From assembly GCA_000525675.1 (NCBI GenBank), contig CP002190.1:2852001-2916000 (forward strand): DNA of 64,000 nucleotides, written 5' to 3'. The notes under the pieces were generated by a model. The model saw nothing but the letters and a program-made list of their open reading frames with translations. It was not told the origin of the DNA and ran no database searches. The translations under genes and the position numbers were made by a program. The stretch is from Bdellovibrio bacteriovorus W. GTDB taxonomy: Bacteria > Bdellovibrionota > Bdellovibrionia > Bdellovibrionales > Bdellovibrionaceae. The first letter of the stretch is position 1. Each line of letters opens with the position of its first letter. Below, in pieces: positions 55,515 through 64,000 of this stretch.

Positions 55515-55830
55515 TCCTCAGTTCCCCCGCCCGAGAAGTCCTGGAATCATACGGAATCCATTATTATATACGGCTTTAAATTTAATGAAACCAAACTTCA
55601 CCAGTCGTCCATATAACAATTCTGAGACATGTGAATAAGGTTAGGATGGGCTCTACGTTGAATTTTTATTCTCGAGAATATTAATGACATATGTATATAA
55701 ATTTTTGTATACTTAAGCTAAGCTACTAACTAGGCTACATGTGTAGATATAAACATAATTTGGCTAATGCACACCCATTTCGAATGTACGAAACATTACG
55801 GATATTCGGAATTTAATACCCTGAAAAGGT
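55515..55830. other. AT-rich intergenic region, start of accessory DNA
   Basis: 316 bases with no gene I can support. Base composition drops sharply toward AT from about 55650. Its right end carries two operator-like palindromes. Confidence 0.6.
55778..55816. promoter_or_regulatory. Tandem operator-like palindromes upstream of XRE gene
   Basis: TTTCG-N6-CGAAA (55778-55793) and ATTACG-N6-CGGAATTTAA (55795-55816), centres 18 bp apart. Both share CG-N6-CG with the sites at 57545-57626. Confidence 0.45.
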
Positions 55831-56196
55831 ATGCACGTTAAAGTTAAGACTATGAAGAAATCCGAGAAAATATCAAAAAAACAGATCGCTTTCGGGAGAG
55901 TTCTTAGTTCCATAATGAAAGAGAAGAAACTGAGCCTTAAGCAAATCGCCAATATGGCGGGCGTAAGTATTTCCGTGGTCTCTGATTGGACTGCGGGCAA
56001 TGTTCCCAGAGATTTAGAAGCTGTCTTCAAATTATCTTCTGCTCTTGATGTCGAATTTTCAATGTTATTACTCGGTCGCATTGAGGAGAAAAAACAATCT
56101 GCTGTCTTAAAGCATCTCCTTACAGAAGAAGACTTATTTGATGGATTCCTCCGCGTTAACATCAAGAAAGTTTCTATAAATGTTGAAAGTAAATAG
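55831..56196 (+). CDS. XRE-family transcriptional regulator
   Basis: 121 residues from the ATG at 55831; the ATG at 55852 is equally possible because the AAGG before 55831 is too close. An HTH_3 domain (about 25-80) contains LSLKQIANMAGVSISVVSDWTAG, the two helices typical of Cro/C1 regulators. The C-terminus (about 85-121) is short and charged, with no obvious ligand domain. The palindromes just upstream suggest autoregulation. The gene is in the AT-rich part of the window. Confidence 0.78.
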   Translation: MHVKVKTMKKSEKISKKQIAFGRVLSSIMKEKKLSLKQIANMAGVSISVVSDWTAGNVPRDLEAVFKLSSALDVEFSMLLLGRIEEKKQSAVLKHLLTEEDLFDGFLRVNIKKVSINVESK

Positions 56197-56293
56197 AAAT
56201 CTTTTGGAATACTTGAAATAGCCATATCCAATATTTTGGAAGAGTTTTCTGAAAAACCACCTTAGATCTATCGGAAGGATTTGTTGAAATAAG

Positions 56294-56845
56294 ATGAAAC
56301 GACGCCTTCCGTCTAAAGCATTGAATTTGAAACGTACTTACAATGGTATTGTTTTGATCCTTTTTCTTACCCTAGTATTCTCGCTCTGGAGTGAAACAAC
56401 TTTTGCGGCACCTGCGATAAACCAAAGACCAAAGGCATTCAGTATTCGCGGCGCTTATATGCAAGCTCATCAAAATAATTCAGGTAGAATAGATACGGCA
56501 CTTTTTGAAGTTGGGTATCGCCATTGGTTCAACTCAAAAGTCTACTCGTCCTTATATGCAGGAGCTTTCTCTTTTTCATCAACAACTGTCGACGACGATT
56601 TAGGACTGAACACTTCTCTGCTTATAGGATTTAATCTGGATAACCTTTTAAGGCTTGAATATGGACTTTCTTATTTTGACTGGGGCCTTTCAATGGACCC
56701 TACTTTAATGGGCATCAATAGAGCATCTTTTCCTATTGATACTTTTCAGATTAACGAGGTTTTCATAGCTGTCGGTTTTCCTGGAAACTCTACAGGAGCA
56801 ACTCCTTCGTATATTTTACATATAGGAATAGGCAAGTTTCTTTAA
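56294..56845 (+). CDS. Exported small beta-barrel-like protein
   Basis: 183 residues. A long Sec signal (positive start, hydrophobic 18-33) ends in TTFAA (about 38). The mature part looks like an eight-strand barrel (FSIRGAYMQAHQNNSGRIDTALFEVGYRHWF) and ends in IGIGKFL. I do not recognise a family. The start codon is poorly supported: GAAGGAT lies about 15 nt upstream. It follows the XRE gene by 97 nt. Confidence 0.6.
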   Translation: MKRRLPSKALNLKRTYNGIVLILFLTLVFSLWSETTFAAPAINQRPKAFSIRGAYMQAHQNNSGRIDTALFEVGYRHWFNSKVYSSLYAGAFSFSSTTVDDDLGLNTSLLIGFNLDNLLRLEYGLSYFDWGLSMDPTLMGINRASFPIDTFQINEVFIAVGFPGNSTGATPSYILHIGIGKFL

Positions 56846-56937
56846 GTGGACTTTTCAAAGATTTTCTAAAAAAACTTAATACTTTTAAGAATATACTTTA
56901 TGAAAATAAAGATAGTAATTGTGGAAGATTAAGAATT

Positions 56938-57486
56938 CTAGCGAATATATAACTCTGTAGATTCAAAATTTATCCCCTTAGGAGGAATCCATTTTTTTAA
57001 AATATGTACATTACCCGTCCAAATCTCTTGTTCACAAACTTCAGAACCTCTGTATTTAGACGACTGTAGTGTAACCCCCACAACACCCTCCCCCTGATAA
57101 AGATAATAATCATCCGATCCCAACATTAAAGTATTGAAGCGGACGAACCTATTATCAATTTCATGAATGTAACATTGCCCCGTACAATCTGAAGAGGCAA
57201 AATAGCAAGCACCATTTGGATTGTTGATATCAAAATTTATAAGCCTATATTTTCCTGTATTCGCGATAGTAGTGAATTTTACCATAGGGCCATTGTTTAC
57301 TTTAGCTATCAGCATAAAGTCTTCTATTTGAACAAATTTTCCAACATACGCACCGCCCGAAGTGTAAACTCCAAGTGCCCGATCTGCATCTTCCATTAAC
57401 GACGACTCTTCCCCATTTCTTAAGCGACCACAAGAAATCATTAGAATGCAAATTGCTAAACTTAGTACGAACCTAGACTTATTCAT
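56938..57486 (-). CDS. Small lipoprotein
   Basis: 182 residues from the ATG at 57486, with GAGGT 7 nt upstream; an ATG at 57504 is weaker. The lipobox is LMISC (Cys at about 18). The mature protein is strand-rich with cysteine pairs (CYFASSDCTGQC). The function is unknown. It is divergent from the large secreted-protein gene, and operator-like palindromes lie between them. Confidence 0.68.
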   Translation of the reverse strand: MNKSRFVLSLAICILMISCGRLRNGEESSLMEDADRALGVYTSGGAYVGKFVQIEDFMLIAKVNNGPMVKFTTIANTGKYRLINFDINNPNGACYFASSDCTGQCYIHEIDNRFVRFNTLMLGSDDYYLYQGEGVVGVTLQSSKYRGSEVCEQEIWTGNVHILKKWIPPKGINFESTELYIR

Positions 57487-57544
57487 CGCAATACCTCGTA
57501 TCATCGTGTTTAGTTATCGTCCGCAAAATAAAAATAGTAACAAC

Positions 57545-57626
57545 AATCCGGACCTACGGAATTAACTTCGCCTAGATTTGGATAAATATAAATTTACCTG
57601 ATTTAATTCCGGTAATTCGGAATTAA
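57545..57626. promoter_or_regulatory. Two operator-like palindromes in divergent intergenic region
   Basis: Site 1 at 57545-57565 (AATCCG-N6-CGGAATTAA) and site 2 at 57603-57626, a perfect 9-bp inverted repeat TTAATTCCG-N6-CGGAATTAA. They match the arrangement upstream of the XRE gene. Confidence 0.5.
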
Positions 57627-57740
57627 CTAAATTATATTTACATAAATTACGAATACCATTCACAGATCTTGATAAGGACATACTTTCACGATTCCAAAGC
57701 ATGATTCTGAAGTCCTTCATCTTCCTCAAGGAGCTACAGA

Positions 57741-59468
57741 TTGTTTTCTATTTACACCACTGTTTTCAAAAATTTTCTTACTAAAAAAGTGTATAGTACG
57801 AATCTTAACCCTAAACTTTGTGCACTGTATGTTTCTATGTTCCTCGTACTATCTCCCCACCAAAGCTACTCCTTCTTTGATGTTAAATGCACGGATTTCG
57901 AAAGAAATTATCTATCTGAAAAAGGCGAGATAAAAATTATAAAAGAAGAAGGTGGATTTGGAGGCCAAAGACTCACAAAACTCTCGGTGGATGTCATTAC
58001 ACTTCCTCCGGAAGAGATCATACCAATTATCGAGAAAGTAGAGTGGTATCTTGAAAGCTGCAAGGGCCTTTCATATAGCTCTGTGCCAATAGAAGCTCAT
58101 CCAAGAATCGCCGAAGCTAATAATCGACTTAAAATGAATGATAAAGTAAAATCCCTATTAGATTCTATAGCAGCAGAGAAAGCAGCAGCAATAAAAGAAG
58201 AAGGTGAAAAGATGCAGGTCTTGGCCAATCTAAAGGCCAAAGCGGGGGATTGTAAGAGAAATGGCTATAATACCTGCTACAATGGTATCAAATGGGGAAC
58301 ACCTGCTGAGTTTCACCATAATGGAAATAAGCTTAATGAATTTTTTTGTTCTAGTCCTAAAACCAATCAAACCACTCCTCATGTTAAAAACATTGTTCGA
58401 CTTTGTGGTCCCAGTTTAGGCGATTCGAAAATTACAGATGCGCTCAATATCCTTGGAGAAGATAATTGCGACTATATTCTCGTAGACAATAAAATAGTCG
58501 GATTTAAAGAGACACTATATAATCCTGATGAAAATGCATTCACCCTGAAAAAGGCAGAGTTAAGAAATAAATATGGCGCTCCTCAAGAGTCCTCACTCTG
58601 CAATCTGGACTTTAAAGGTAATTCAGCAGAAACCTTAAAATATACTTCAAAGACGGGACTAGAGGTGGTTTTAACAAGATCTCAAAACTCGAATAATGGC
58701 TTTCGTTCCGGAAAACCTATTGTGGTGGTGAGATACCTATTCATGCCTTCCCTAAAAGAATCCAGTCATAAATATTTATTAGCCCAAGAGTCTCATGCCC
58801 AAAATCTCGCAGAACTTTCTCCTAAGCAAGAATCAGAAAAAGGCCCTTCTGATAGCTCCCTAATTGCTGAGGAATTTTTAGTTGATAAAAATTATTCAAA
58901 GGCTATCGCAGTTTGTGAAGAGGCCACCAAAGCAAGAACAGATAATGAATGTGCAGAAATTTTGACAAAAACACGTCCAATTCTTGCTAAAATAAATCGA
59001 GAAGCAGCAAAAAAGAAAGCCCAGGAGAACGAAAATAGAAGATTAATTCTCGAGCAAAAAAGGCGTGAGATAGCCGAAAAAAAAGCCAAAGAACTTGAAC
59101 TGCAAAGACAAAGAGAAGATGCAAAGGATAGAAAAAGAGCCTCCAAAGAATGTGTCCGCGCAACCTTGGTTGAAAAATATTGTTCCGATGTTCTAAATAT
59201 TGGTATCCAGCAAAACCTTATTGATAGGGAAAACAGAGTTGGGAAAGATACTGGGGTCGTCGATAATCAAACTTTGTATAAAGCAGGAATAGCAAAGTCT
59301 TATTTAGAAGATCGAGCTGCCAGCATAGCAAGGGATCTAGCCCGCAAGGTTGATTATAATATCTCTTCATCAGAATGCGTGCTCTCACTGAATCATTTTG
59401 GATTTCCAACAAATGTTACGCATAAACTTACTATAAATATTCGGGCAGTATGTGAGTTAGCCCCTTAA
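57741..59468 (+). CDS. Large secreted hypothetical protein with coiled coil
   Basis: 575 residues from a TTG with a strong AAGGAG 7 nt upstream; an ATG at 57837 would shorten the signal. The N-terminal hydrophobic segment ends near SYSFF (about 45). The middle has cysteine-bearing segments (CKRNGYNTCYNGIKWG, about 171-186). A Lys/Glu/Arg coiled coil runs about 415-470. No family is recognised. The gene has AT-rich codon use unlike the ribosomal genes to its left. Confidence 0.62.
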   Translation: MFSIYTTVFKNFLTKKVYSTNLNPKLCALYVSMFLVLSPHQSYSFFDVKCTDFERNYLSEKGEIKIIKEEGGFGGQRLTKLSVDVITLPPEEIIPIIEKVEWYLESCKGLSYSSVPIEAHPRIAEANNRLKMNDKVKSLLDSIAAEKAAAIKEEGEKMQVLANLKAKAGDCKRNGYNTCYNGIKWGTPAEFHHNGNKLNEFFCSSPKTNQTTPHVKNIVRLCGPSLGDSKITDALNILGEDNCDYILVDNKIVGFKETLYNPDENAFTLKKAELRNKYGAPQESSLCNLDFKGNSAETLKYTSKTGLEVVLTRSQNSNNGFRSGKPIVVVRYLFMPSLKESSHKYLLAQESHAQNLAELSPKQESEKGPSDSSLIAEEFLVDKNYSKAIAVCEEATKARTDNECAEILTKTRPILAKINREAAKKKAQENENRRLILEQKRREIAEKKAKELELQRQREDAKDRKRASKECVRATLVEKYCSDVLNIGIQQNLIDRENRVGKDTGVVDNQTLYKAGIAKSYLEDRAASIARDLARKVDYNISSSECVLSLNHFGFPTNVTHKLTINIRAVCELAP

Positions 59469-59568
59469 AAAAGTACGTAGGCTCACTTTGAATGATAGAA
59501 TGAAAGCGGCATAAGCTGCTTAGCAAAAGACAAAAAATATTGCTCTTAAATCAATTTCAGACATAAAA

Positions 59569-59590
59569 AAACCCGCCAGAAAGCGGGTTT
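59569..59590 (-). terminator. Intrinsic terminator of a minus-strand transcript
   Basis: 8-bp stem AAACCCGC/GCGGGTTT with loop CAGAAA. The T7 tail is on the minus strand, so it ends minus-strand transcription, as expected downstream of a tRNA gene. Confidence 0.75.
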
Positions 59591-59605
59591 AAAAGAAAAA
59601 ATAAA

Positions 59606-59626
59606 TGGTGGCTTGAGACGGAATTG
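59606..59626 (-). other. Probable tRNA 3'-end remnant (attachment site)
   Basis: Read on the minus strand, CAATTCCGTC (end of T-loop plus T-stem), TCAAGCC (acceptor strand), A and CCA match the last 21 nt of a tRNA in spacing. The T-loop then breaks off and no D or anticodon arm follows. A terminator for the same strand lies 15 nt on. This is typical of the end left by integration into a tRNA gene. Confidence 0.45.
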
Positions 59627-60007: not shown

Positions 60008-60808
60008 CTATTTGCTTAGAACTTTTTCGGAATTCCGCATAGGGTGAGACTTTTCAATCATACTCAACACAGTTCGGCAAAAATTTTCCTCATCCTGAAT
60101 AGCAAGAATTACTTCGTTCACAGCCTCAAGCTTTACCTTAGATAAGATACGCCATTCAATTCGATATACCTCTCCGTCTACCTCACGGAATTTATTTTGA
60201 AAGTGAAGTATCGAATTTTCCATTCGCACTCTCCTTTCGTCCTTTATGCGGCTCTTTTTAAGCTTTTGAAGGTATTCCGCGATTTGATGCGATTTGGAGT
60301 AACAAGAAATCACCAGAGTTGTAGATTTGAAGTAGCTTCCCAAAGATCGTTTCACATCCCGAACATAGAGTTCTGGCTGGTAAAATGAATTTCCTGTTTT
60401 AAGCAGCCAAAAGCCATTCTTAAGATCGTTTAGCGGATCACTGCACTTTTTTGCTAGAAAGTGGCGGCAAATATCTAGCCTAGTTAGGTAAAAGAAAAAT
60501 CCACCTTTATGAATATAATTTAGCAGAGTTCTTATCTGAATCCATGCTGTGCCTTTTAAGAAAAACTCTCCCTTGGCTAGGATCTTAAGCATACTATGGG
60601 TAACCTCGATATTTATCCCACCTCGGACACAGATCGATCTATAACCACCAACTCGATCATTTCCAGATATCTTGAAAACTTCAAATACCTGCTCTAGAAG
60701 AATTTCATTTTTATTTTTCTTTTCCCAATAATAGGAGGCTACGGGCCGATCGATTAGAATCCGAATTTCAACAGTATCCATTTGCGGTGAATCAATGAGA
60801 GTAATCAT
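60008..60808 (-). CDS. Rep_trans/NicK-like replication initiator or relaxase
   Basis: 266 residues. Segments fit the replication-initiation-factor family (PF02486), which includes rolling-circle plasmid Reps and MOB-T relaxases such as NicK: FYLTRLDICRHF (about 103-114), a tyrosine in LVISCYSKSHQ (about 167-177) and a final YRIEWRI (about 220-226). The probable catalytic tyrosine cannot be proved by eye. The ATG overlaps the stop of the preceding ATPase frame (ATGA). In Gram-positive elements a coupling ATPase likewise precedes this relaxase, which supports the call. Confidence 0.5.
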   Translation of the reverse strand: MITLIDSPQMDTVEIRILIDRPVASYYWEKKNKNEILLEQVFEVFKISGNDRVGGYRSICVRGGINIEVTHSMLKILAKGEFFLKGTAWIQIRTLLNYIHKGGFFFYLTRLDICRHFLAKKCSDPLNDLKNGFWLLKTGNSFYQPELYVRDVKRSLGSYFKSTTLVISCYSKSHQIAEYLQKLKKSRIKDERRVRMENSILHFQNKFREVDGEVYRIEWRILSKVKLEAVNEVILAIQDEENFCRTVLSMIEKSHPMRNSEKVLSK

Positions 60809-61203
60809 ACCGATCCACCTAACCTATTTTTCAGTTCTTCTTTGGAGATAAATCTCGCTTTTATAAAGACCGAGCCTCGAGATTTGCTCGAATAGTAAAA
60901 CACACCAGGTCTTTTCAGAATTGGAAGATTTAGCGGCAATCCTTGTAACGACGTCGCATCATCATTCACATAACCATAGACCCCCGCATGAAATAAGTTT
61001 GCATGAATTTGCAGTTGGCTTATCAGCTGCCCTTGCGTGGCTACAACTGCATACTGCTCGAATTTGCGGGATGAGGTGACAATATTTTCCAAATGCTTAA
61101 TTATTTGTTGATTGAGAGGATATGATTCTTCTTTAGAGGAACTATTGGAAAATGATTCCAACATCTCATCGACCACTATTAACCAAGGAATTTTGTCTAA
61201 CAA
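60805..61203 (-). CDS. FtsK/TraG-like ATPase, C-terminal part (frameshifted)
   Basis: 132 residues from a TTG at 61203, but the open frame continues upstream to 61323 and reads EFFAGKQGLAQALKNIKDYQ before it, so the TTG is not a natural start. The Walker B is WLIVVDEM (about 7-14), followed by YAVVATQGQ (sensor-like). The Walker A is in the preceding frame. Together they would form one ATPase of about 373 residues. The 3' end overlaps the Rep-like gene. Confidence 0.6.
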   Translation of the reverse strand: MLDKIPWLIVVDEMLESFSNSSSKEESYPLNQQIIKHLENIVTSSRKFEQYAVVATQGQLISQLQIHANLFHAGVYGYVNDDATSLQGLPLNLPILKRPGVFYYSSKSRGSVFIKARFISKEELKNRLGGSV

Positions 61204-61280
61204 GACCCCTTTTTCCCAAGCTTCGGCGAGAGTTTCAAAGTCACCAAGATCTATCGTCTTTTGATAGTCCTTAATATTCT

Positions 61281-61925
61281 TTAAAGCCTGGGCAAGACCC
61301 TGTTTTCCTGCAAAGAACTCGAATCAAATTCAAGCACTCGATTGCTACCCCGAAGAGATGTGAATGAACCATGAGGATCACTGATCACTACACACCCGGT
61401 GGGATACTTTTCAATGAAAGAAAGGATGCGTGCTCTGAGCAAAGAGGTTTTTCCACCTCCTGATTTGATCCTAACAATTGTCGTGTGATCTTCTGGCTCA
61501 AAGGCATTGCCATCTTGATCCAAAAATACTGCTTCAGTTTTTAGATTCCTTTTAAATAAAGACTTCTTGGTATGAAAATTTGCCCGCTCAAAATAGATTC
61601 TTTCTTTTTCTGCTCTGGAGCTGATTATGGATTCATCCTTGAAAAGCTCTGCAAAAAAGCCAATATGTTGATTGAATGTCGAGCTCGGCTTATTTGGCTT
61701 ACTAATGTAGACATGGCCGAATATCGGATGCTTTATTCTGGTGTGGTCATTTGCAAATCCATTTTTAACCAATGTATCCAGTTTATAGTTTTTCTTACTC
61801 TGAAATGAACTTTTTAAAAAAGTAATGGCTGCGATTAATATGGTAAACAGAATTGAACATACGACCGCAGCGCGGGACGGATCTTGCCGTCCCCACACTA
61901 CCGCTATTTCCAAAAGATATTTCAT
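61281..61925 (-). CDS. FtsK/TraG-like ATPase, N-terminal part (frameshifted)
   Basis: 214 residues. One membrane segment lies at about 21-38. The Walker A is KSGGGKTS (about 154-161), then VVISDPHGS (about 175-183) as in coupling ATPases. After LEFDS (about 200) the frame turns into apparently nonsense sequence; the continuation lies in the -1 frame. It would bring DNA to a membrane channel or pump it, like FtsK or T4CP proteins. The ATG overlaps the stop of the upstream OB-like gene. Confidence 0.6.
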   Translation of the reverse strand: MKYLLEIAVVWGRQDPSRAAVVCSILFTILIAAITFLKSSFQSKKNYKLDTLVKNGFANDHTRIKHPIFGHVYISKPNKPSSTFNQHIGFFAELFKDESIISSRAEKERIYFERANFHTKKSLFKRNLKTEAVFLDQDGNAFEPEDHTTIVRIKSGGGKTSLLRARILSFIEKYPTGCVVISDPHGSFTSLRGSNRVLEFDSSSLQENRVLPRL

Positions 61926-62197
61926 GCTAACCTCAAAACTTTTCCTTGGCTAACACCACGCCTGCCCTCGAAGTCATAGGCTCGTCCTTCTACTACGACC
62001 TTATCGCCTATTTTTAAAGGACCTAGGTCTTTCAGCTTCACTGAGTACAGAAGAGTTTCCGTAAATTCTTTTTCACCGATCTTCAGCGAAACTTTTCTTT
62101 CGACAATAAGTTTAGCTTTAAGGCCAAGCTCAATATCTTTTTCAGAAGGATTTGTAATCGCACCTATATCTACAATGGTTCCAACTATGGCATCCAT
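61922..62197 (-). CDS. OB-fold-like small protein (possible ssDNA-binding)
   Basis: 91 residues, GAGGT upstream. Predicted strands and the ending PLKIGDKVVVEGRAYDFEGR, then RGVSQGKVLRLA, resemble single-strand DNA-binding OB folds, where a GD/VEG turn before a GR turn is common. That would suit a rolling-circle replication module, but the assignment is inference. It is the first gene of the minus-strand operon and is divergent from the ABC-3C-like operon. Confidence 0.5.
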   Translation of the reverse strand: MDAIVGTIVDIGAITNPSEKDIELGLKAKLIVERKVSLKIGEKEFTETLLYSVKLKDLGPLKIGDKVVVEGRAYDFEGRRGVSQGKVLRLA

Positions 62198-62314: not shown

Positions 62315-62344
62315 TTGGCCGCCGTATTACTATACGGCGGCCAA
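62315..62344. other. Perfect 12-bp GC-rich hairpin, candidate origin or oriT
   Basis: TTGGCCGCCGTA-TTACTA-TACGGCGGCCAA in an AT-rich gap. No T-tract follows on either strand. The loop context TATTAC recalls nick sites of rolling-circle initiators. Confidence 0.5.
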
Positions 62345-62452: not shown

Positions 62453-62623
62453 ATGCATTTAGCAACAATTGCAAATATTTGCACAATTCTTTCTCTAATT
62501 TGTTCACTATTTATTGGCTATTCAGTTTTAAAATTAAGACAGTCTGTTTCTCAAAGCGGTGATGGAAATACAAATGGAATGCAAACCGCAAAGGGAAACA
62601 ACAACCGCCAATCAATCAATTAA
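62453..62623 (+). CDS. 56-aa membrane protein of the ABC-3C-like operon
   Basis: I translated this by hand: ATG at 62453, stop at 62621-62623, AAAGG 7 nt upstream. A single membrane helix (IANICTILSLICSLFIGYSV, about 6-25) is followed by a positive KLRQ and an Asn/Gly-rich tail with SGDGNTNG and GNNN. It ends 6 nt before the 184-aa component, so they are co-translated. The tail motif resembles GDNNTQ at the N-terminus of that protein. It may be a membrane effector; that is a hypothesis. Confidence 0.6.
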   Translation: MHLATIANICTILSLICSLFIGYSVLKLRQSVSQSGDGNTNGMQTAKGNNNRQSIN

Positions 62624-62629
62624 GCTCAC

Positions 62630-63184
62630 ATGGCGGAAAAAACACAAAACATAGACGGCGATAATAATACGCAAGTATACATTGAGAAGATGTTGGCTGG
62701 ACTGGGAAATGTTTCATCTACACTTGCCACGCTTATGCCTAAAATTGCAGCTCTTAGTGATAATTCCGATATCACCGACGACGATACCGTACCTTACGAC
62801 ATCGAAAAAAAAATCACTCATAATGATTTAAAGGGATGTGGTCCGCTCATCGTTGAATACCATTCTTATGGTACCCAAATTGATACTATTTACTCGGAGT
62901 ACAATGAAGGAAAGCCGGGCTCAACAAAAAAACTCTTTAAATACTTCAAGGATAAGTATTTAAATCGACGAGCCGCTATAATTTCGAAGAATAAGGGACG
63001 CGACGAGATGGAAGTCATCAGAGAGAATTCTGACGATATTCTTCTTGGCATTATTGGGGAACTGGTGGCAGATTTAAGATCCTCCAATAATTTGAGCATT
63101 TCGGTTGAAGAAATTGGACCTTGCGCAAGCGCGGTGGTTTGCCACGCATTTATTCAGTGTAAGATTTTAGAGAAGCCAAAATGA
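62630..63184 (+). CDS. ABC-3C system component (C-terminal-domain-like)
   Basis: 184 residues. The N-terminus carries IDGDNNTQV (8-16), a short motif also seen in other conflict-system proteins. The remainder is helical, with CGPLIVEYHSYGTQIDTIYSEYN (about 69-91) and SDDILLGIIGELVADLRSS (about 134-152), resembling the C-terminal domain of ABC-3C first components. No nuclease, protease or other N-terminal effector domain precedes it. Its stop overlaps the next ATG (ATGA). Confidence 0.6.
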   Translation: MAEKTQNIDGDNNTQVYIEKMLAGLGNVSSTLATLMPKIAALSDNSDITDDDTVPYDIEKKITHNDLKGCGPLIVEYHSYGTQIDTIYSEYNEGKPGSTKKLFKYFKDKYLNRRAAIISKNKGRDEMEVIRENSDDILLGIIGELVADLRSSNNLSISVEEIGPCASAVVCHAFIQCKILEKPK

Positions 63185-63423
63185 TAGTAGATAGCGATTT
63201 ACATCCGGAGAAAAATATCTTTTTCATCTCTGCGATGATTTTGGATCAACTATCAAAAATGAAAACCCGAAATATTGAAATTTTTGAACTGTTCAATCTG
63301 TACAACAAAAATAATATCTCTAAAATTTCTTTTGATTACTTACTACTATCTCTAGACTGGCTTTTTTTGCTCGGCTTAATCAATTTAGACGCAAAGGGAA
63401 ACATAGTTTATGTATCTCCATAA
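63181..63423 (+). CDS. ABC-3C middle component (MC6-like)
   Basis: 80 residues. The pattern HPEKNIFFISAMILDQL (8-24), a central helical section and ISFDYLLLSLDWLFLLGLI (about 49-67) followed by DAKGNIVY is the MC6 arrangement I know: a small winged-helix protein linking the ATPase and the first component. It overlaps both neighbours, which is typical of such operons. Confidence 0.75.
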   Translation: MIVDSDLHPEKNIFFISAMILDQLSKMKTRNIEIFELFNLYNKNNISKISFDYLLLSLDWLFLLGLINLDAKGNIVYVSP

Positions 63424-64000
63424 GTTAGTAATAAATACCAATAAGGGCGTCTTGCGTGAAGTTCCATTTAAAAAGGGTCTTAACTTAATTGTAGATCGCA
63501 CAACTTCTACAAAAAGAAACGAATCTGGAAATAATGTCGGCAAAACTACTTTTTTGAGAATTATCGACTTCTGCCTCGGTGGAGATAAAGATCCAATTTA
63601 CACGGATCGGGAATTCAAAAAGAAGAATCAATCAATATATGATTTTCTTTTCAATAATGAAGTAAATTTTGACCTCTTCGTGGAAACAAAAAAAGGTACG
63701 ATCCATAGAATCAATAGACCTATAGACGGTAAAGCATCCATTGATGGTGTCCCAATGACGTCAGAGAAGAAATTTACTGAACAACTAATGCTTTTGATGT
63801 TCGGATGCAACGTCGGTAAACCAAGTTTCGGCCAATTGATGAATAAATTCATTAGAATCGAAAACGATCAGATTGAGAATGCTTTGTATTTTCTTTTTTC
63901 GATGTCTGATCGAAGTGACTATGAAGCACTATTCATGTTTTTATTTGGATTCAGAGACACAGGCTTGTTGGCGAAAAAACGTGTCCAGATCGATAAAATA
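63410..64000 (+). CDS. ABC-3C ATPase (DUF2326-type), partial
   Basis: 197 residues to the window end, translated by hand from the ATG at 63410 (14-nt overlap with the preceding gene, AAAGGGAAA upstream). The Walker A is GNNVGKTT (about 42-49), followed by FLRIIDFCLGGDK, diagnostic of the DUF2326 SMC/RecN-like ATPases. The coiled coil and Walker B would lie beyond the window. In ABC-3C systems this subunit senses invading nucleic acid and controls an effector. Confidence 0.78.
   Translation, partial: MYLHKLVINTNKGVLREVPFKKGLNLIVDRTTSTKRNESGNNVGKTTFLRIIDFCLGGDKDPIYTDREFKKKNQSIYDFLFNNEVNFDLFVETKKGTIHRINRPIDGKASIDGVPMTSEKKFTEQLMLLMFGCNVGKPSFGQLMNKFIRIENDQIENALYFLFSMSDRSDYEALFMFLFGFRDTGLLAKKRVQIDKI

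Follow-up and report, generated by a model that had tools for sequence, protein, structure and literature searches.

Streptococcal integrative mobilizable elements (IMEs) are known in which a relaxase of the Rep_trans/MobT type is paired with a TcpA coupling protein (PMC5704250, PMC7563843). The Rep_trans enzymes share the motifs N', RxD, YxKxxE and RxE (PMC5714925), and mutational analysis of the MOBT relaxase RelSt3 showed that the motif residues are needed or important (PMC6499999). A GC-rich hairpin with CT'AA in its loop is common to the nic site of Tn916/ICEBs1 and the dso of Rep_trans origins (PMC9371924). Most MOBT relaxases have an N-terminal HTH, and the class is recognised by this HTH together with PF02486. 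The actinomycete AICEs are small integrated elements with an integrase, a Rep protein and one FtsK-like translocase, as are the elements described below; their TraB protein moves double-stranded DNA, and their Rep families differ from the one found here.

The locus analysed here lies in a 64-kb stretch of the genome of Bdellovibrio bacteriovorus W (the window, on whose scale coordinates are given unless another locus is named). With a probability of roughly 0.6, the gene cluster is the replication and mobilisation core of an integrative element of about 7 kb in a tRNA-Phe gene, belonging to a Bdellovibrionota family that is undescribed as far as limited literature searches reach. The window element is best read as a decayed member of a family of small elements, integrative or plasmid, whose plan follows that of the mobilizable elements of Firmicutes that combine a Rep_trans relaxase with TcpA. 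It resembles the streptococcal IMEs in being small and integrative, in its Rep_trans-type protein without HTH, in the FtsK-like ATPase gene nearby and in the lack of a mating pore, and some of those IMEs also reside at tRNA genes. Unlike them, the Bdellovibrio-type elements occur in Gram-negative predators, encode very divergent proteins and have extra genes for an OB-like protein and a small fourth protein, and their mobilisation is presumed.

An earlier note, written from the DNA sequence, had compared the cluster to the ConQ-NicK core of ICEBs1/Tn916-type elements. The resemblance holds for the Rep_trans/NicK affinity, for the FtsK-like, coupling-type ATPase and for the gene order of ICEBs1, Tn916 and ICESt3 (a small ORF, the ATPase, then the Rep_trans protein), and the hairpin loop is CT'AA-like. 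It does not extend to a strict ICE core: the window element has no T4SS, no Rep HTH and no DUF961/HelP match, is far smaller, and looks decayed. The Rep_trans plasmids pT181 and pC221 share with it the catalytic motifs N', I, III and IV and a nick-site-type hairpin, and one relative is on a plasmid; the window element differs from them in being integrated, in having a recombinase and a membrane ATPase, and in its single clear long hairpin.

The core operon

The core genes lie on the minus strand:

61922-62197, minus: small beta-rich OB-like protein, 91 aa (73% for the homologue in G152, at a contig edge)
61281-61925, minus: N-terminal part of the ATPase, 214 aa, with a TM segment and Walker A SGGGKT, ending past a frameshift near 61310
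60805-61311, minus: FtsK/HerA-like ATPase, C-terminal part in a second frame, with Walker B VVDE (the listed TTG ORF starts at 61203)
60008-60808, minus: Rep_trans-like initiator/relaxase, 266 aa, with D11, R110/D112, Y170/K172 and E218/R220 (motif residues from PMC6499999, PMC5714925)
59691-59900, minus: small helical-looking protein, 69 aa, the fourth core gene (homologue in G152, 52% identity)

The three core genes are real, and translationally coupled through 4-nt ATGA overlaps at 61922-61925 (OB/ATPase) and 60805-60808 (ATPase/Rep). The coupled operon proposed earlier thus stands for the OB and Rep ORFs and their overlaps, except that the ATPase is spread over two ORFs rather than one. 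The same order of OB, ATPase, Rep and fourth gene is found in G152, a genome of the same genus, where the contig starts within the OB gene and the Rep protein is 58% identical. The reading frames of the window and G152 are strongly constrained (pN 0.16-0.42 and pS 0.78-0.88, with synonymous sites saturated). Judged by eye, a small ORF similar to the 69-aa gene follows Rep on its 3' side in other elements, and is fused to another ORF in plasmid pBdHAGR3.

In the window, Walker A and the TM segment of the ATPase lie in the first ORF and Walker B in the second, which is in a different frame (listed as 60805-61203). The G152 ATPase is intact, with 376-385 aa in a single frame, and relative to it the window copy has one base missing near 61310. 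The missing base reflects either mutation or an assembly error; given the strong constraint, the frameshift is therefore recent, if it is not such an error. A single frame encodes the ATPase in G152, as in the other relatives, which makes programmed frameshifting unlikely.

The two ATPase fragments have no direct family match in the searched libraries. Among the relatives, the best family is phrog_1358 FtsK/SpoIIIE of PHROG (L054 1e-16, L016 1e-8, L050 6e-8), and Pfam gives weak P-loop matches only. Of the traits of TcpA-type proteins, the TM segment and the Walker motifs are thus present, in a copy that is frameshifted, and the FtsK-like score comes from the relatives.

The OB-like protein likewise has no direct family match in the searched libraries, and PF06125 (DUF961/HelP) matches none of the OB-like proteins. 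Its tentative assignment comes from the pattern of predicted strands; an AlphaFold model is all-beta, but at pLDDT 48 is too poor for a fold search.

The Rep-like protein

The window Rep protein matches no Pfam, PHROG or NCBIfam model. Searches of PDB sequences gave chance matches only, and tblastn against phages and plasmids found nothing. An AlphaFold2 model built from only 3 sequences (pLDDT 33) is too low in confidence for a fold search, or for placing the catalytic Tyr on a beta-strand as in the Rep_trans fold. The earlier note had staked the assignment on a match to PF02486, and the window protein alone has none (nor was one found in G000), but this outcome is reversed by the evidence of its relatives, of profile-profile comparison and of the catalytic motifs. 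A profile of the window Rep and its nearest relatives finds divergent homologues across other Bdellovibrionota, many of them adjoining an ATPase gene. One of these, L048 (= L020), exceeds the PF02486 cut-off (33.8 vs 29.6 bits), and a second, L050 (= L022), comes near it (26.8 bits). In hhalign, the window Rep group aligns to this PF02486-positive pair at 95.8% (E 6.6e-9) and to a second group of relatives at 96.7%, against 0.3% for an unrelated protein used as negative control. The first match of the Rep profile, L003/L025, was an unrelated FHA protein and was discarded.

D11, Y170 and K172 are invariant in an alignment of 11 divergent Rep sequences, and R110, D112, E218 and R220 are nearly so. 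In the window protein these residues form motif N' (D11), motif I (R110-L-D112), motif III (Y170-S-K172-S-H-Q175, with Gln in place of the final Glu) and motif IV (R216-I-E218), which is the Rep_trans pattern. As judged from sequence, the catalytic residues typical of Rep_trans/MOBT enzymes are retained. The N-terminal HTH is absent, and there is no space for one because the Asp of motif N' is residue 11; the MOBT combination of HTH and PF02486 is accordingly not found in the window Rep.

A candidate nick site

A strong hairpin precedes the operon in the intergenic region, 118 bp before the OB gene begins:

62315-62344, unstranded: perfect 13-bp-stem hairpin, reading TTGGCCGCCGTATAGTAATACGGCGGCCAA on the operon strand, candidate nick site (dso/oriT)

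Shuffling the 432-nt intergenic region 3000 times, or the element 300 times, yielded no equal hairpin, and only two hairpins of equal strength occur elsewhere in the window. Most of the other elements scanned also have hairpins beside the module (G011 has none by the same criterion), and these differ in their stems but have related loops: CTAATA in G242, G190 and G237; GTAATA in the window, G130 and pBdHAGR3; and CTATTA in G132, G173, G192 and G213. The window loop resembles the CT'AA loop but reads GTAATA rather than CTAATA, a point against the preferred reading. The strand and exact position of a nick within the hairpin are presumptive.

In elements of the tmRNA type (L043:12112-12182, L045:12447-12517, L012:1700-1770), two adjacent hairpins lie upstream of the operon, and recall the ICRII/ICRIII pair of pT181-type origins.

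Boundaries, cargo and apparent decay of the element

The small integrative element that the earlier note had suspected is borne out by an att repeat in the tRNA-Phe gene, empty sites and related elements across the phylum. The distal boundary and the cargo genes within the window are as follows:

59603-59626, unstranded: distal att copy AAATGGTGGCTTGAGACGGAATTG, a 24-bp exact direct repeat identical to the tRNA-Phe 3' end
62630-63184, plus: cargo, ABC-3C CTD10 component (PF20275, 3.5e-13)
63181-63423, plus: cargo, ABC-3C middle component MC6 (PF20293, 1e-16)
63410-64000, plus: cargo, ABC-3C ATPase (DUF2326), continuing to window-scale 65098 (PF10088, 4e-14; PADLOC PDC-M68B, 2e-33)

The second att copy, at the tRNA-Phe 3' end, is at window-scale 66660-66683, 2.7 kb past the window end; the copies are 7057 bp apart, giving an element of 7.06 kb. 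The tRNA-Phe-metB locus is syntenic within the genus, and in a comparison of eleven related genomes the att sequence is single and uninterrupted at the tRNA-Phe 3' end, with the element absent. These repeats and empty sites are what is expected of an integrative and mobilizable element.

Adjoining the tRNA-Phe gene is an integrase remnant, in which two fragments align to the L054 tyrosine integrase (E 1e-7 and 1e-3). The fragments are in different frames, and about 135 residues are missing relative to L054, so that the recombinase is not intact; relatives of the window element have intact ones. Between the remnant and the core module sits the ABC-3C operon (window 62630-64000; L004:13410-15095), which matches the PADLOC candidate PDC-M68 and, more weakly, Lamassu LmuB. 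Coat, Zot and T4SS/MPF genes were not found in the 7-kb element.

With its frameshifted ATPase and broken integrase, the window element looks decayed or partly broken. Because the integrase is deleted and frameshifted and the ATPase is frameshifted, this copy has probably lost its mobility, and the defence operon on board may be the reason for its persistence.

Some other features of the region were seen. Just 5' of the CTD10 gene, an unlisted ORF (62454-62624, plus strand) encodes 56 aa, with a single TM segment and a tail rich in Asn. Four lone genes (an HTH gene, two exported-looking genes and one for a 575-aa protein) occupy 55600-59600, between pgeF and the att site; pgeF is within about 1 kb of tRNA-Phe in the relative G149, and this stretch may therefore be another insertion. 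A tRNA-like 5' fragment, GTGTGGTAGCTCAGTTGGTA, adjoins the integrase remnant (L004:15750-15780) and is a possible relic of an earlier integration.

Related elements in other Bdellovibrionota

The distribution of the module was probed across the Bdellovibrionota, and beyond the phylum by narrow scans only; the rarity among Gram-negative bacteria that the earlier note had asserted was assessed within this phylum. The related clusters that the earlier note had called for in this phylum were found: the module occurs in about 13 (at least a dozen) further genomes and on plasmid pBdHAGR3. A broader Rep profile has matches in 20 of the 369 genomes of the phylum, some of them without the ATPase. A Rep profile search of genome contigs returned none in a first run, and in a second only the G132 and G192 contigs.

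At the tmRNA gene of G132 and G173, which represent two genera, lie elements about 6.3 kb long that are 97-98.6% identical; the sequences diverge sharply beyond the right end, where the flanking DNA is unrelated. Both contain a repressor, a tyrosine integrase, cargo, the OB, ATPase and Rep genes and a small ORF. The presence of a near-identical element in two genera implies recent horizontal transfer. Elsewhere, the OB-ATPase-Rep set is accompanied by a serine recombinase next to tRNA-Leu (G130, G011), or by tyrosine integrases next to tRNA-Asn (G190, G242) or tRNA-Cys (G237). Exact long att repeats were not found in the relatives, only in the window element, and the others were placed by tRNA and recombinase. 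ATPase-Rep pairs are also present in G203, in G053 and, at a second locus, in G132; G198 and G210 contain ATPase genes that belong to the same group.

Plasmid pBdHAGR3 is a natural 15.4-kb circular plasmid of Bdellovibrio, in which the module is annotated as hypothetical proteins and which MOB-suite classes as non-mobilizable.

Two further proteins recur in these elements. Many have, 3' of Rep, an unannotated protein of about 170-250 aa (L049:8563-9159, L051, L054, L055, L086:11058-11816, L101) with a conserved GC(A/G/P/S)xxxLxN-like start; it looks like a cysteine peptidase, and the one copy checked has no Pfam match. The other, of 60-100 aa, is found in elements and the plasmid and has a K-x-x-K-x-G-like stretch and, after it, short hydrophobic strands (L045:11926-12108, L048:2509-2799, L049:4882-5187, L086:11972-12160, L101:3118-3303); it is usually opposite to the core operon.

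A working model and its alternatives

Excision of an intact member, in circular form, would be the work of a recombinase of the tyrosine or serine type. The Rep_trans-like protein would nick one strand in the loop of the upstream hairpin via Y170, and the nick would start rolling-circle replication, with the OB-like protein covering or assisting the single strand. The membrane FtsK-like ATPase would serve as coupling protein and deliver the complex of Rep and ssDNA to the conjugation pore of a helper. By analogy with known elements (PMC5704250, PMC7563843), nicking, rolling-circle replication and hand-over by the ATPase to a helper pore make the simplest model. It is improbable that intact members move between predators with no T4SS at all, the FtsK-like ATPase, Rep and OB-like protein sufficing for an AICE-like minimal conjugation in Gram-negative cells.

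One might instead view the element as an integrating plasmid-like one, in which Rep, hairpin and OB-like protein serve rolling-circle maintenance only and the ATPase acts in segregation or DNA pumping at division, not in conjugation. The same module on circular pBdHAGR3 fits such a purely replicative role equally well, the Rep protein without N-terminal HTH resembles plasmid Rep_trans proteins, the ATPase is nearest to FtsK/SpoIIIE, and the Rep genes of L048, L052 and L056 have no neighbouring ATPase gene. VirB4 was found in 5 of the 13 hosts searched, but not in the other 8; none was found in the window's own genome, which therefore has no resident helper. However, a membrane ATPase beside a Rep_trans gene is the TcpA/MobT arrangement of Firmicute IMEs (PMC5704250), and the transfer between two genera also counts against this explanation, which is rather doubtful. 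A relative or satellite of a filamentous phage, with the OB-like protein as ssDNA-binding protein, the ATPase as pI-like assembly protein and Rep as phage initiator, is suggested by the element size, by the set of Rep, SSB and FtsK/HerA ATPase, and by weak matches that some Reps have to Phage_CRI (E 0.01-0.07); pI-like ATPases with an N-terminal TM segment occur in 30% of inovirus-like species (PMC6813254). It is very improbable, however, since no coat-like gene set was recognised in the elements, the ATPase is not closest to Zot (a criterion in PMC6813254), Zot matches are absent from all 13 hosts, and no relative was found among phage records or in IMG/VR scans, where the sole match (L042) was a chance false positive. 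Coat, Zot or T4SS genes were not found in any of the related elements, and membership of the Inoviridae is rejected because Zot-type pI and short TM coat genes are missing. There is scarcely any likelihood that the OB, ATPase and Rep genes are just part of an anti-phage system with the ABC-3C operon. That PDC-M68-like operon does adjoin them, and the ATPase has weak matches to Mads-type P-loop proteins, but the idea was already disfavoured: in the relatives examined the module lacks ABC-3C and has as neighbours recombinases, tRNAs and cargo of other kinds (restriction-modification, transporters).

Significance

On the preferred reading, as the core of a mobilizable integrative element, the cluster indicates that Gram-negative predators, too, have a design for DNA mobilisation that is known best from Gram-positive bacteria. 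Mobile elements of the Rep_trans-plus-FtsK type have been described mainly from Firmicutes, and the cluster extends their range to a phylum of such predators. Most members are recognised by no family model, and standard relaxase searches would miss them, as the MOB-suite call on pBdHAGR3 illustrates. The hairpin and the four motif residues offer a directly testable candidate nick site. The elements transport defence genes and other cargo and have recently passed from one genus to another, which makes them candidate vehicles of gene flow among bacterial predators.
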